The notes under the pieces: generated by a model
What the model was told of the DNA's origin: nothing
What the model saw: only the letters and a program-made list of their open reading frames with translations
The model's database searches: none
Program-made: the position numbers and the translations under genes
In this document: in pieces, positions 379 to 55,061 of the stretch
Layout: each line of letters starts with the position of its first letter
Numbering within the stretch: position 1 is the first letter of the stretch
Assembly (NCBI RefSeq): GCF_029229925.1
Contig: NZ_CP107254.1
Coordinates: forward strand, 1,364,001-1,428,000
Direction of reading: 5' to 3'
Source of the DNA: Halorhabdus sp. BNX81
Lineage (GTDB): Archaea; Halobacteriota; Halobacteria; Halobacteriales; Haloarculaceae
DNA length: 64,000 nucleotides

Positions 379-882
379 TTAGCTCTCTTCGGCCAGGAGC
401 CCGACGAGGTGGCCCAGTACTGGCGTGACGAGTTCGGCTGTCCCGAAGTCCGCCGCGGACTCGCTGCCGGGGAGACAGAAGACCGGAACGTCGTCGACAA
501 TTCCTGCGGTGGCCCGAGTCAACATCGCGTGTGGTCCTGCCTGTTCGACCGATCGTGCCCTGAAGCGTTCGCCGAATCCCGGAAGTTCCCGGTCGAACAG
601 CGGTGTAAGTGCTTCGATGGTCACGTCGTCGGGAGTGACGCCGGTGCCGCCGGTGGTGATGATCACGTCTACGTCTTCACGGTCGGCGAAGGTTCCCACG
701 CGCTCGCGAATGGCGTCGACGTCGTCGGCAACCAGATCACGGGTGCTGACGGTGTGGCCCGCGTCTTCGAGCGCCGTGATGATCGCATCTCCGCTGTCGT
801 CAGCGTCGAGAGAACGACTCGACGAGATTGTCAGAACTGCGGCGGTGACGTCACTTCTATCGTGCCCGTGGTGCCCGCTCAT
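379..882 (-). CDS. moaB: Molybdenum cofactor biosynthesis protein MoaB/Mog family
   Basis: This 167-residue protein has the MoaB/MogA fold signature: ITTGGTGV near the middle, followed by DVTIEAL, the FRARSVEQAG region and a C-terminal LPGSESA segment that replaces the usual LPGSP. The family adenylylates molybdopterin before molybdenum insertion. The open frame extends further upstream, but ATG at 882 (protein MSGHHGHD) gives the usual family length and the extension has no recognisable content. It is followed on the same strand by mobB, so the two probably form a short cofactor operon. Confidence 0.88.
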   Translation of the reverse strand: MSGHHGHDRSDVTAAVLTISSSRSLDADDSGDAIITALEDAGHTVSTRDLVADDVDAIRERVGTFADREDVDVIITTGGTGVTPDDVTIEALTPLFDRELPGFGERFRARSVEQAGPHAMLTRATAGIVDDVPVFCLPGSESAADFGTAELVTPVLGHLVGLLAEES

Positions 883-985
883 GGTGGCTGGTTCGGATCG
901 CAGGCCGCTTGAAGGGACCGGTCGCGGTGGTCGGACGATGATTTCGACAGCGCTCTGGACTCTCTTGGCCGCTATGCGGTGATCA

Positions 986-1255
986 CTACTTGCCAGGCTC
1001 GCGGGTGTCGAACCGGTCGGCAACATACGAGACGGCGACCAACAGCACGCCAAGGCCGAGGCCGATGGTGACCATGCCATAGATAGCCATCCCCAGGGCT
1101 GTCGGCGGGAGCGCGATGACGCCGAACAGCTCCGGCTCGACGACGTCCGGCCGCGCCGCGCCCAGGATCGCCCCCATCACCCCGGCAATCACGGTGATAA
1201 TCAGGTACACCCCGACGACCACGCGACGGCCACGGATCGGACTGGAAGTCGACAC
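986..1255 (-). CDS. Small two-TM membrane protein of the haloarchaeal cox cluster (DUF7520-like)
   Basis: This 89-residue protein has two strongly hydrophobic segments (about residues 12-34 and 54-77) joined by a short acidic loop containing PDVVEPELFG, and it ends in a charged tail. It resembles the DUF7520 proteins that travel with haloarchaeal haem-copper oxidase genes. The oxidase subunit I gene lies 270 bp upstream on the same strand, which is the expected context. No enzymatic motif is visible. A role as an assembly factor or accessory subunit is inferred from neighbourhood only. Confidence 0.7.
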   Translation of the reverse strand: MSTSSPIRGRRVVVGVYLIITVIAGVMGAILGAARPDVVEPELFGVIALPPTALGMAIYGMVTIGLGLGVLLVAVSYVADRFDTREPGK

Positions 1256-1314
1256 ACCCCCCGATATGTGCCGGAGGCGATTAGGCTTTTCACTCCCGGC
1301 GGGTATCAGGGAGT

Positions 1315-1401
1315 ATGTCCGAAAAAGAACTCATGCTCGTGGCGCTCGTCGCGATCGCGGTGATGATGGGGGTCGCCGCGTTCATGCTCGTGCTTGGATA
1401 A
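1315..1401 (+). CDS. 28-residue single-TM peptide beside the oxidase genes
   Basis: ATG at 1315 opens 28 codons ending in TAA at 1399-1401. The peptide is MSEKELML followed by about 20 uninterrupted hydrophobic residues, ending MLVLG: a charged head and one membrane helix. A TATA-like stretch (TTAGGCTTTT, about 1281-1290) lies 25-34 bp upstream, which suits a leaderless or short-leader transcript. It sits opposite in direction to both flanking cox-cluster genes. Known haem-copper oxidases carry tiny single-helix subunits (for example subunit IIa of Thermus ba3 and CbaD of Natronomonas). A similar role here is inference. Confidence 0.55.
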   Translation: MSEKELMLVALVAIAVMMGVAAFMLVLG

Positions 1402-1525
1402 GCCAGTCCTGTGACGCTCCTGCATCGAGTGGATCCTGCGTCGCTTCTATTGGCCGGTGAAAACTCGGACGGGGAAGAGAAACCGCGATTTCAGATCATG
1501 TGCGCCGCCTTTCAGACCGCAGCCG

Positions 1526-3286
1526 TCACTCGTTTGTCTCACGCTCGCCGCCGTCGGCCCACAGATCCGCGTCCGCTTGCGTATCGTCTTCGGCGATTCG
1601 AGCCTCGTTCCAGGCGAACTCACGGGTGAACAGCCCCTCGTCTTTGAGGTCCCACGGGTCGCCGTCCGTGAGTTTCGGGCCGTCGAGCCACGACTGGAGG
1701 ACGTTCCAGACGAAGATGAGTTGGCCCACTAGCAGGATCAGAGCCCCGACGGTGGCTGCCTGATGGAGGAGCGTAATCACCTCGATCGGGCCGACCGTGA
1801 TCGCGCCGTAGGTCGCGTACCGCCGTGGCAAGCCGAAGTAGCCCAGCAGGATCATGGCGAAAAAGGTCACGTTCGTGCCGATCATCGACAGCCAGAAGTG
1901 CCACTTCCCCAGTGTCCGCTGGTACATCCGGCCCGTAAAGATGGGGAACCAGTAATAGATGCCCGCGAACACCGCAAACGCGATCGCGCCCATGATGATG
2001 TAATGGAAGTGGCCGACGACGTAGTAGGTGTCAGTCAGGATCAGGTCGATCGGGATCGACGCGAGGAACACGCCGGTCACCCCGCCGATGATGAAGTTCG
2101 CGACGAACCCGATACAAAACAGCATCGGGGTCGTCAGCCTGATGCGGCCGTTCCACATCGTCGTGATCCAGTTGAACGTCTTGACGGCGCTCGGTACCGC
2201 GATCGCTAACGAGACTGCCATGAAACTCGCCCGGAGGCGTGGGTCGATCCCGGTAGCGAACATGTGGTGGGCCCAGACGCCGAAGGAGAGGACGCCGATC
2301 GCCAGCGTCGAGTAGACGACGAACTTGAACCCGAACAGTTTCCGCCCGGCAAATCGCGGGAGGATGTAGCTTATCAGTCCCATCGGTGGGAGCACGAGGA
2401 CGTACACCTCCGGGTGACCGAAGAACCAGAAGAGGTGTTGCCAGAGGATCGGATCGCCCGCGCCGACCGCGAAGAACATCGTCCCGAGGTTTCGATCGAG
2501 CAACAGCATGATGAGCGCGCTCCCGAGTAGCGGGAACGCAAAGAGGATGATTCCCGACTGGGTGAGCATCGTCCAGGAGAAGATATCGAGGTTCGCCCAG
2601 GAAACGTCGTCACCGCGTTCGGTGAAGATTGTGACGATGAAGTTGATCGCCCCCATCGTCGCCGAAATCCCGGTGAGATGGAGCCCGAGCAACATCATGT
2701 CCGTCCCGAGGTGAGCCTGCTCGACCGACAGCGGCGCGTACATCGTCCAGGATGCCTGGGAGGGAGCGATCCCGGGAATCAGAAAGCCACTCCAGATGAG
2801 CAACGCGCCCGGCGGTAGCAACCAGAATGCGATCGCGTTGATCCGGGGAAAGGCCATGTCGTCGGCCCCGATCAGGAGTGGGATGAAGTAGTTGCCAAAG
2901 GCCGCGATGATCGGCGTCCCGAAGAGAAACAACATGGTGATGCCGTGACTGGTGAGCAACGCGTTGTAGAAGCTCGCACTCACGATGTTCGAGGTCGGCG
3001 TGACGAGTTCCAATCGCATCACGACGACGGCCAGCCCGCCGACCGCCAGCGCGATCAGCGCAAACAGGCCATAGAGGAGCCCGATATCCTTGTGATCGAC
3101 CGTCGTGAGCCACCGGAGCACCCCGGCGGGTTTCTCCCGGTGACCGTAGCCAGTCTCGCTGACGGTTCCGCCACTGCCCGCCGGTGACGCGTAGCTCCGC
3201 CAGTCTTCAATGCGCGTGAGAAACGCCGCGACCACGACCAACAACACCCCCATCAAAACCGTCAATGCGAGCTGTTCGCCTGCCAT
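1526..3286 (-). CDS. coxA: Haem-copper cytochrome oxidase subunit I (A-type)
   Basis: This is a 586-residue protein with about 12 membrane helices. Haem and copper ligands are all present: low-spin haem His114 (TSHGITMLF), CuB His291 with the cross-link Tyr295 and proton-channel Glu293 (GHPEVY), CuB His340-His341 (WAHHMF), and haem His426/His428 (VVGHFHY). D-channel Asp143 (ADDMAFPR) and K-channel Lys369 (PSAVKTF) are also retained, so this is an A1-type, proton-pumping design. ATG at 3286 is preferred over an in-frame GTG at 3295, because a TATA element lies 26 bp upstream of the ATG. It reduces oxygen to water in the cytoplasmic membrane. No subunit II gene lies in the window. Confidence 0.96.
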   Translation of the reverse strand: MAGEQLALTVLMGVLLVVVAAFLTRIEDWRSYASPAGSGGTVSETGYGHREKPAGVLRWLTTVDHKDIGLLYGLFALIALAVGGLAVVVMRLELVTPTSNIVSASFYNALLTSHGITMLFLFGTPIIAAFGNYFIPLLIGADDMAFPRINAIAFWLLPPGALLIWSGFLIPGIAPSQASWTMYAPLSVEQAHLGTDMMLLGLHLTGISATMGAINFIVTIFTERGDDVSWANLDIFSWTMLTQSGIILFAFPLLGSALIMLLLDRNLGTMFFAVGAGDPILWQHLFWFFGHPEVYVLVLPPMGLISYILPRFAGRKLFGFKFVVYSTLAIGVLSFGVWAHHMFATGIDPRLRASFMAVSLAIAVPSAVKTFNWITTMWNGRIRLTTPMLFCIGFVANFIIGGVTGVFLASIPIDLILTDTYYVVGHFHYIIMGAIAFAVFAGIYYWFPIFTGRMYQRTLGKWHFWLSMIGTNVTFFAMILLGYFGLPRRYATYGAITVGPIEVITLLHQAATVGALILLVGQLIFVWNVLQSWLDGPKLTDGDPWDLKDEGLFTREFAWNEARIAEDDTQADADLWADGGERETNE

Positions 3287-3309
3287 GGCGTACACTCCGG
3301 GAGGTTCCC

Positions 3310-3318
3310 ACTAAAAGG
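3310..3318 (-). promoter_or_regulatory. TATA-like box of coxA
   Basis: Read on the minus strand the sequence is CCTTTTAGT, centred about 28 bp upstream of the coxA ATG at 3286. This spacing places the transcription start at or next to the ATG, so the message is probably leaderless. Confidence 0.4.
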
Positions 3319-3392
3319 GTGCGTTAGAGGCACCATTCGCTCCCGATTCCGTCCGTCGAATCAGGGACGTGACGTCGAAATCGGTACCGCCC

Positions 3393-54485: not shown

Positions 54486-54619
54486 TGGGAATATTATGGG
54501 CATGGTATGGAAAAGCGTGGCGCAATCTGGGAAATGAGGTGGGGTCGCCGGGACGGATAGAGACATTTTTTACAGTGGGTACGTTTTGGGGTAATGCGAA
54601 GGGTCGGCCACGGCTCCGT

Positions 54620-54694
54620 GGGCGCTTAGCTCAGCCTGGACAGAGTACTTGGCTTCGGACCAAGCTGTCGGGGGTTCAAATCCCTCAGCGCCCG
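54620..54694 (+). tRNA. tRNA-Arg (anticodon TCG)
   Basis: The 75-nt sequence folds as a tRNA: acceptor arms GGGCGCT and AGCGCCC, D-arm GCTC...GAGT, anticodon stem CTTGG/CCAAG with loop CTTCGGA (anticodon TCG), and T-arm with TTCAAAT. It should read CGA arginine codons. CCA is not encoded. Its 3' part is the source of the repeats found downstream. Confidence 0.95.
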
Positions 54695-54701
54695 TACTTC
54701 T

Positions 54702-54724
54702 GTCGCTCGCAATTCGCGAGCGAC
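54702..54724 (+). terminator. Perfect 9-bp hairpin just after the tRNA-Arg gene
   Basis: Arms GTCGCTCGC (54702-54710) and GCGAGCGAC (54716-54724) surround the loop AATTC, starting seven bases after the tRNA discriminator base. It may help to end or process the tRNA transcript. There is no long T-run, so terminator function is uncertain. Confidence 0.4.
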
Positions 54725-54736
54725 GAATTCGTCATT

Positions 54737-54753
54737 CTGAGGGATTTGAACCC
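54737..54753 (-). repeat. Inverted copy of the tRNA-Arg T-arm
   Basis: CTGAGGGATTTGAACCC is the exact reverse complement of 17 nt from the T-arm and acceptor of the tRNA gene just upstream (part of 54673-54690). Together with the direct copy at 54811 it shows repeated insertion or rearrangement at this tRNA. Confidence 0.85.
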
Positions 54754-54810
54754 TGGCAGTCGCAGCCCGCGCAGCCGAGCGAAGCGAGGCAAGCAGGACC
54801 GTCTCCATTC

Positions 54811-54832
54811 GGTTCAAATCCCTCAGCGCCCG
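54811..54832 (+). repeat. Direct copy of the last 22 nt of tRNA-Arg, attachment-site-like
   Basis: The 22-nt sequence starting GGTTCAAATCCC and ending AGCGCCCG is identical to 54673-54694, the 3' end of the tRNA gene, 116 bp downstream of it. Such a direct duplication of a tRNA 3' end is the usual trace left by a site-specific integrase (attL/attR). No integrase gene remains between the copies. Confidence 0.8.
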
Positions 54833-55061
54833 CTTGCTATCGCTCGCACGAAGGCGATCGACCTGTTCGAAATACAGAGTAGTTGAACCCCGTTCGATGA
54901 ACGGCTACGGGGACCGGAATGGGAAGTATGCGCACCAATCGACCGCGACAGAGAGTTCGGCACGGATGGAAAGACCTCGCGGTTGCGTGGACCGGTCTGT
55001 CCAACCGGGGTGTCCAACCCTCACGACAGACGCAACCACTTGAACCGGTATCGGTGATTCT

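Follow-up and report, generated by a model that had tools for sequence, protein, structure and literature searches.

In what follows, the window is the whole 64-kb stretch of Halorhabdus sp. BNX81 DNA that was analysed. Within it, tRNA-Arg(TCG) is followed by a unit of ~138 nt that consists of a hairpin (module A), an inverted copy of the tRNA's T-arm, a second hairpin (B), and the last 20–22 nt of the host tRNA (Table 1). The direct copy is identical to the tRNA over its full 22 nt (54673–54694 and 54811–54832, 100%), and the edge of the copied core falls at G53/T54. The inverted copy is perfectly complementary to the tRNA over 17 nt (54672–54688 and 54737–54753, 100%) and also pairs with the distal direct copy, over 16 nt. 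An earlier sequence-only reading of the locus had reported both of these repeats, and its coordinates and identities proved to be exact.

Module A of the window unit folds as DNA at −13.3 kcal/mol (z = −3.8). The inverted copy can alternatively pair with the T-arm of the tRNA itself, which gives a DNA hairpin around module A with z = −10.3. Hairpin B has a conserved inner stem, formed by AGTCG (54758–54762) and CGTCT (54800–54804) and containing a T.T mismatch, and a variable tip. Against R1, a covariance model of hairpin B, the window copy scores E = 5.7e-20. Beyond the last core, positions 54837–54848 resemble 54700–54711 at 92% (direct repeat D4), and the segment that holds them is possibly the decayed start of an older unit.

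Table 1. Features of the tRNA-Arg(TCG) locus, in window coordinates
Feature	Position	Strand	Basis or remark
tRNA-Arg(TCG)	54619..54695	+	ARAGORN; Rfam tRNA
20-nt 3′ end of tRNA-Arg(TCG), T54-N73 (duplicated segment)	54675-54694	+	
Module A hairpin	54695..54736	+	Stem 54698-54710 / 54716-54727; sequence differs from unit to unit
Inverted T-arm copy of tRNA-Arg(TCG)	54737..54753	-	Can pair either with the distal copy, forming hairpin B, or with the T-arm of the tRNA itself
Hairpin B interior	54754..54810	+	Covariation; covariance model R1
Direct copy (core) of tRNA 3′ end	54811..54832	+	100% identity; cognate part T54-N73 = 54813-54832
A-like segment after last core	54833..54865	+	Putative; direct repeat D4

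A family of units behind haloarchaeal tRNA genes

A BLASTN comparison of positions 54600–54900 with 59 genomes gave many matches per genome, behind different tRNAs. The matches that we read share one architecture, in which the tRNA 3′ end is followed by hairpin A, an inverted T-arm, hairpin B, and a copy of the same tRNA's 3′ end. In BNX81, at least one such copy lies no more than 900 nt behind 25 of the 41 tRNA genes, each with that tRNA's own 3′ end, and ~40% of the tRNAs have no unit. Because the three-part arrangement recurs behind so many genes, each time with the cognate end, it is far beyond chance.

The covariance model leads to the same picture. Searched with R1 at E up to 1, the BNX81 genome returned 41 rows; three weak readings on the opposite strand (E about 0.001–0.008), two of them overlapping stronger same-strand matches, were set aside, which left 38. 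Thirty-six of these lie within 600 nt 3′ of a tRNA, and all 36 are on the tRNA's strand, a zone that makes up only 0.4% of strand positions. One of the other two is found ~9 kb from tRNA-Val(GAC), behind a displaced copy of the 3′ end of this tRNA and near an integrase gene; the second scores only E = 0.57. Inversion of hairpin B was considered and rejected, there being no strong opposite-strand match in the BNX81 genome. All strong hairpin B matches follow the strand of their tRNA.

Units are present in 51 of 53 Halobacteriales genomes of a phylum sample and in 0 of its 242 other Halobacteriota genomes. Halobacteriales genomes without a match include G028, G043, G047, and G151. In the set of relatives, matches occur in 52 of 59 genomes, from many families; named carriers include Halorhabdus amylolytica, Haloarcula mannanilytica, Halorubrum xinjiangense, and Halobacterium sp. 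CBA1126. The units are thus a large, haloarchaea-specific family of short non-coding units at tRNA 3′ ends. At E ≤ 1, Rfam cmscan of nine loci found no family for the units; its matches were to tRNA and one S15 leader, and all others fell short of the gathering score. In phage and plasmid collections queried with the window unit, the matches listed were tRNAs, together with a single unit on a Natrinema megaplasmid, and this unit in turn sits behind a tRNA-like sequence. A hairpin-B pattern gave nine matches in viral contigs, of which the covariance model confirmed none. Our search of the open-access literature found no description of the haloarchaeal units, although such an absence does not prove novelty. 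One carrier, tRNA-Pro(CGG) (L143, G000:C1:503500-506000, 1278–1351), was called by ARAGORN and is absent from the genome's Rfam tRNA list.

Covariation of hairpin B and of the inverted T-arm

The structure of hairpin B is supported by covariation. In 28 units, RNAalifold gave 17 pairs, 9 of which show compensatory change, and shuffling and sliding controls support these pairs. In 68 distinct matches, largely from other genera and aligned to R1, which favours its structure (the MAFFT alignment A1 agrees), 97.1% of the hairpin B cells are paired, and 116 cells have changed on both sides, compared with 26.6 in shuffles. The pairing in this alignment was destroyed when the partner was slid by one column. 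Helix 1 of the hairpin, which is formed by the inverted and direct core copies, is paired in 96.7% of cells across the 68 sequences, and the T.T mismatch of the inner stem is kept in 76 of 85 units.

The inverted copy, in turn, covaries with the tRNA. Where the T-arm of the tRNA is other than TTCAAATCC, the inverted copy is closer to its own T-arm than to the common one in 33 of 39 units. The copied segment has a sharp boundary. G occupies position 53 in 128 of 129 cases; position 52 varies independently of the tRNA, and the positions from 54 on vary with it. In the sequence-only reading, the inverted copy was attributed to a second insertion or inversion event; it is instead a regular internal part of the unit, which pairs with the direct copy and changes with the tRNA.

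G-U pairs are found in 0 of ~136 cells at the two most variable inner-stem pairs, compared with 3.3% at variable tRNA stem pairs. This lack weakly favours DNA over RNA. A strong verdict from these counts was dropped because G-U pairs are scarce in the stems of haloarchaeal tRNAs as well.

Insertion, array growth, and exchange of modules

Orthologous tRNAs were compared across five Halorhabdus genomes, and exact filled/empty junctions were found at five of them. BNX81 (G000) has a 168-nt unit at Ala-GGC and a 136-nt unit at Lys-CTT, with none in G003 and G006, respectively. G004 has a 191-nt unit at Arg-TCT, with none in G000, G006, or G003, and a 174-nt unit at Ser-GGA, with none in G000; at Arg-CCT, a 114-nt unit is present in G003 and none in G004. 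At all five junctions, alignment of the flanks resumes with the first base behind the tRNA or the core. At the level of sequence comparison, these clean junctions show unit insertion exactly at the tRNA 3′ end.

Growth of the arrays is polar. In arrays whose sizes differ by one or two units, the additional units mostly adjoin the tRNA (for example at Arg-CCG, Asn-GTT, Gly-GCC, Ser-TGA, Thr-GGT, and Leu-TAG), with exceptions at Val-TAC and a few others. We read 245 distinct tRNA genes, of which 145 have arrays; these hold 227 units, up to five per tRNA. Most units are 91–176 nt long. In the 60 arrays with at least two units, mismatches to the tRNA are more numerous in the last core than in the first in 26, equal in number in 33, and fewer in 1 (p = 4e-7). 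This p value is optimistic, because the loci are enriched for units, many having been fetched because they had matches, and include orthologues, so that the 60 arrays are not all independent, but the ratio is still lopsided. Units seem to have been added successively at the tRNA end, so that copies of the tRNA tail now lie behind it in order.

The tRNA-Arg(TCG) locus itself varies in this way. Rather than the same three copies at identical spacing in all relatives, we found 0 to 3 units across the genus: none in G004 and G005, one in BNX81, two or three in G003, and three in G001. The earlier view of the locus as one of active recombination, with copies that differ between relatives, is borne out; its readings as two separate events and as the scar of a lost integrase element are not. 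In G003, the third unit (L039) ends in TTCGAATCCTGCAGCGCCCA, which differs from the end of its own tRNA and resembles tRNA-Arg(TCG) ends found in other genera, and this distal core is possibly a fossil or an import.

Longer DNA is also found at these sites; the names given here to its genes come from reading translations. In G002, tRNA-Arg(TCG) is followed by one unit and then by two cargo segments (~0.85 and 1.4 kb), each with another unit behind it. The two segments, which lie between unit cores (L038, G002:C21:46000-50500, 820–3340), start with similar sequence; one has a Nudix-like ORF and the other has small membrane-protein-like ORFs. The units themselves have no genes, and gene cassettes were rejected as a rule for the family because kilobase cargo lies between cores at only a few loci. 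Integrase elements occur as well. In G006, a 14-kb element that encodes a tyrosine integrase, along with restriction-modification-like genes, separates tRNA-Arg(TCG) from a decayed unit; the earlier reading had proposed to look in relatives for insertions and integrase genes at this tRNA. At tRNA-Gly(TCC) of G244, a 2.9-kb tyrosine recombinase element lies between two nearly identical units (L140, G244:C1:3343000-3350000, 2131–3240), and its right end copies ~43 nt of that tRNA. At tRNA-Val(GAC) of BNX81 (L152, G000:C1:2628500-2631500, 4–1450), an integrase-like ORF lies beside the displaced 3′ end, and an integrated element of ~9 kb appears to separate the tRNA from its array. The copied core measures 41–43 nt in the elements at L048 and L140 and perhaps only ~20 nt at the tRNA-Val element. 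Since such elements are found at unit cores, they seem to use these cores as landing sites as well, but the integrase elements do not have the units as their ends. A tblastn search with two haloarchaeal integrases found few arrays with a tyrosine recombinase nearby, and no recombinase was linked to the units in the arrays checked in this way.

Whole units and their parts behave differently. The best match of a whole unit in another genome (at least 75%) is behind the same tRNA in 47 cases and behind a different tRNA in 7, where random expectation is 4% for the same tRNA. For B interiors, sharing is about equal across tRNAs (49) and within tRNAs (42). Among 1331 inter-tRNA unit pairs, with a threshold of at least 80% identity for B, 58 share B, 18 share A, and 0 share both. 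Thus, whole units stay with their tRNA while their parts reassort. Simple vertical descent may account for some of the sharing at the same tRNA.

Proposed mechanism, alternatives, and relation to known systems

We propose that the haloarchaeal units are inserted at tRNA 3′ ends, where they build polar tandem arrays, by a site-specific recombinase that acts in trans on a folded substrate. As a complete account, we regard this as evenly poised between right and wrong. On this reading, they are non-coding recombining units, and their insertion probably proceeds by site-specific recombination at the T-loop on a DNA hairpin. The enzyme would most likely be a tyrosine recombinase. The crossover would fall in the T-loop, near G53/T54, and would join the 5′ part of the tRNA to the 3′ end brought by the incoming unit, presumably from an excised circle. 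The old 3′ end would be pushed downstream, where it would become the next core and then decay. We infer that the unit is recognised in folded form, as a single strand or a cruciform; this would be the reason for the inverted T-arm, which would act like the R″/R′ arms of integron attC sites. Through the T-arm sites, B interiors would also pass from one tRNA locus to another. A conservative crossover of this kind would make whole units tRNA-specific, would make each core equal to its tRNA, and would let preservation fall away from the tRNA. The prevalence of same-tRNA matches and the lack of joint A and B sharing between tRNAs would follow from a unit that brings the tRNA 3′ end with it. The preservation gradient could also stem from gene conversion with the tRNA as donor. 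Tentatively, we also raise the possibility of an integron-like system on tRNA platforms, in which hairpin-dependent insertion at the T-loop replaces the tRNA 3′ end each time and archives the older ends downstream.

Strong covariation of hairpin B would also be found in a functional RNA, such as a small RNA or a structured trailer transcribed together with the tRNA, with a conserved fold and a copy number that varies by recombination. The Arg-TCT unit lies between the tRNA and its oligo-T stretch and is therefore probably transcribed. However, units are exactly absent at orthologous tRNAs of close relatives and from the ~40% of tRNAs noted above. Moreover, the exact acceptor-strand copy, for which an RNA would have no need, is among the best conserved parts, and both the missing Rfam match and the missing G-U pairs at the most variable inner-stem positions speak against this function, which we consider rather unlikely. 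Unlikely, too, is an origin without a dedicated recombinase, in which old repeats are reshaped by replication slippage or unequal crossing-over between the 22-bp repeats and by gene conversion from the tRNA. Direct repeats that flank a hairpin are unstable, hairpin B is identical in some adjacent units, and gene conversion could hold the cores identical to the tRNA. Such processes, however, do not create units at empty tRNAs, as at Arg-TCT, which is filled in G004 and empty in three relatives, and they leave unexplained both the B modules common to different tRNAs and the regular inverted copy.

Two other explanations invoke insertion of a different kind. In a Cas1- or casposase-like target-site duplication, an A–B fragment would be joined to staggered cuts around the 20-nt tRNA end. 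The cognate 20-nt duplication at many tRNAs agrees with this, as do the tRNA-proximal polarity and distal decay, which recall CRISPR arrays. Yet whole units should then move freely between tRNAs, whereas none of the 1331 inter-tRNA pairs shares both modules, and the cognate inverted copy is unexplained; we judge this route improbable. The simple remnant of a lost integrase element, as first read from the window, draws on the fact that tRNA 3′ ends are common archaeal att sites (PMC8371274) and on the integrase elements found at these same tRNAs. We nevertheless think it very improbable: units of this kind have a conserved interior of their own and recur genome-wide and at many tRNAs in many families; the elements at L048 and L140 carry 41–43 nt of the tRNA and insert independently of the unit; and in relatives, elements are far less frequent than units or empty sites.

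It is useful to compare the units with known recombination systems. Integron attC sites form imperfect hairpins whose outer arms are inverted and direct copies of the crossover site, with a G^TT-like boundary, and cassettes are inserted at the proximal end in a fixed orientation. The haloarchaeal units resemble attC arrays in all of these respects, with a hairpin made from inverted and direct core copies, a G^TT-like boundary, fixed orientation, and proximal insertion. They differ in that they carry no genes, their platform is the tRNA itself, and their core is set by each tRNA. The main text of an archaeal integron survey mentions neither haloarchaea nor tRNA (PMC9668308). With CRISPR arrays, the units share a repeat of constant length, insertion at one end, and decay of the distal repeat (26 to 1 arrays). 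However, their inserts of ~70–155 nt have a conserved structure, with hairpins shared across genomes, unlike CRISPR spacers, and their repeat is a functional tRNA end.

Among haloarchaeal mobile DNA, the sections of a Haloquadratum repeat survey considered here describe MITEs, PATEs, and small mobile repeats, none of them tied to tRNAs (PMC3119063). As described in those sections, these repeats are likewise short, non-coding, and palindromic, but they have terminal inverted repeats or near-terminal palindromes, whereas unit ends are set by the target tRNA. Fixed, element-encoded termini are not what we find, given that the inverted end follows the host tRNA in 33 of 39 units. SNJ2-type and other haloarchaeal integrase integrations also target tRNA 3′ ends and duplicate them, but they bring an integrase gene and kilobases of cargo, and two examples copy 41–43 nt, compared with 20–22 nt for the units.

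If the proposed mechanism is correct, a moving, ordered insertion record, which appears to be undescribed, lies behind most tRNA genes in a haloarchaeal genome, and the 3′ ends of essential genes are swapped repeatedly. The candidate would then join the short list of recombination systems with a folded DNA substrate, and its units would provide strain-level markers of recombination at tRNA genes, the main docking sites of archaeal mobile elements.

The nearest precedent is provided by the 178-bp repeats of Escherichia coli tyrT/tyrV (rttR/tpr), which, like the haloarchaeal units, are tandem and have an exact tRNA 3′-end copy at the unit end. In MG1655, as checked in the sequence, exact 19-nt copies of the tRNA-Tyr 3′ end follow tyrV at intervals of 178 bp. 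These repeats differ from the units in having no exact inverted T-arm copy and no order-wide family with covarying hairpins; to our knowledge, they occur at a single locus. In each 178-bp repeat (NC_000913 1285500-1288200, L280), GGAAGGATGAGA lies ~98 nt upstream of the direct copy and is a 10/12 inverted match to the tRNA-Tyr T-arm, which may reflect chance or the same architecture as in the haloarchaeal units.
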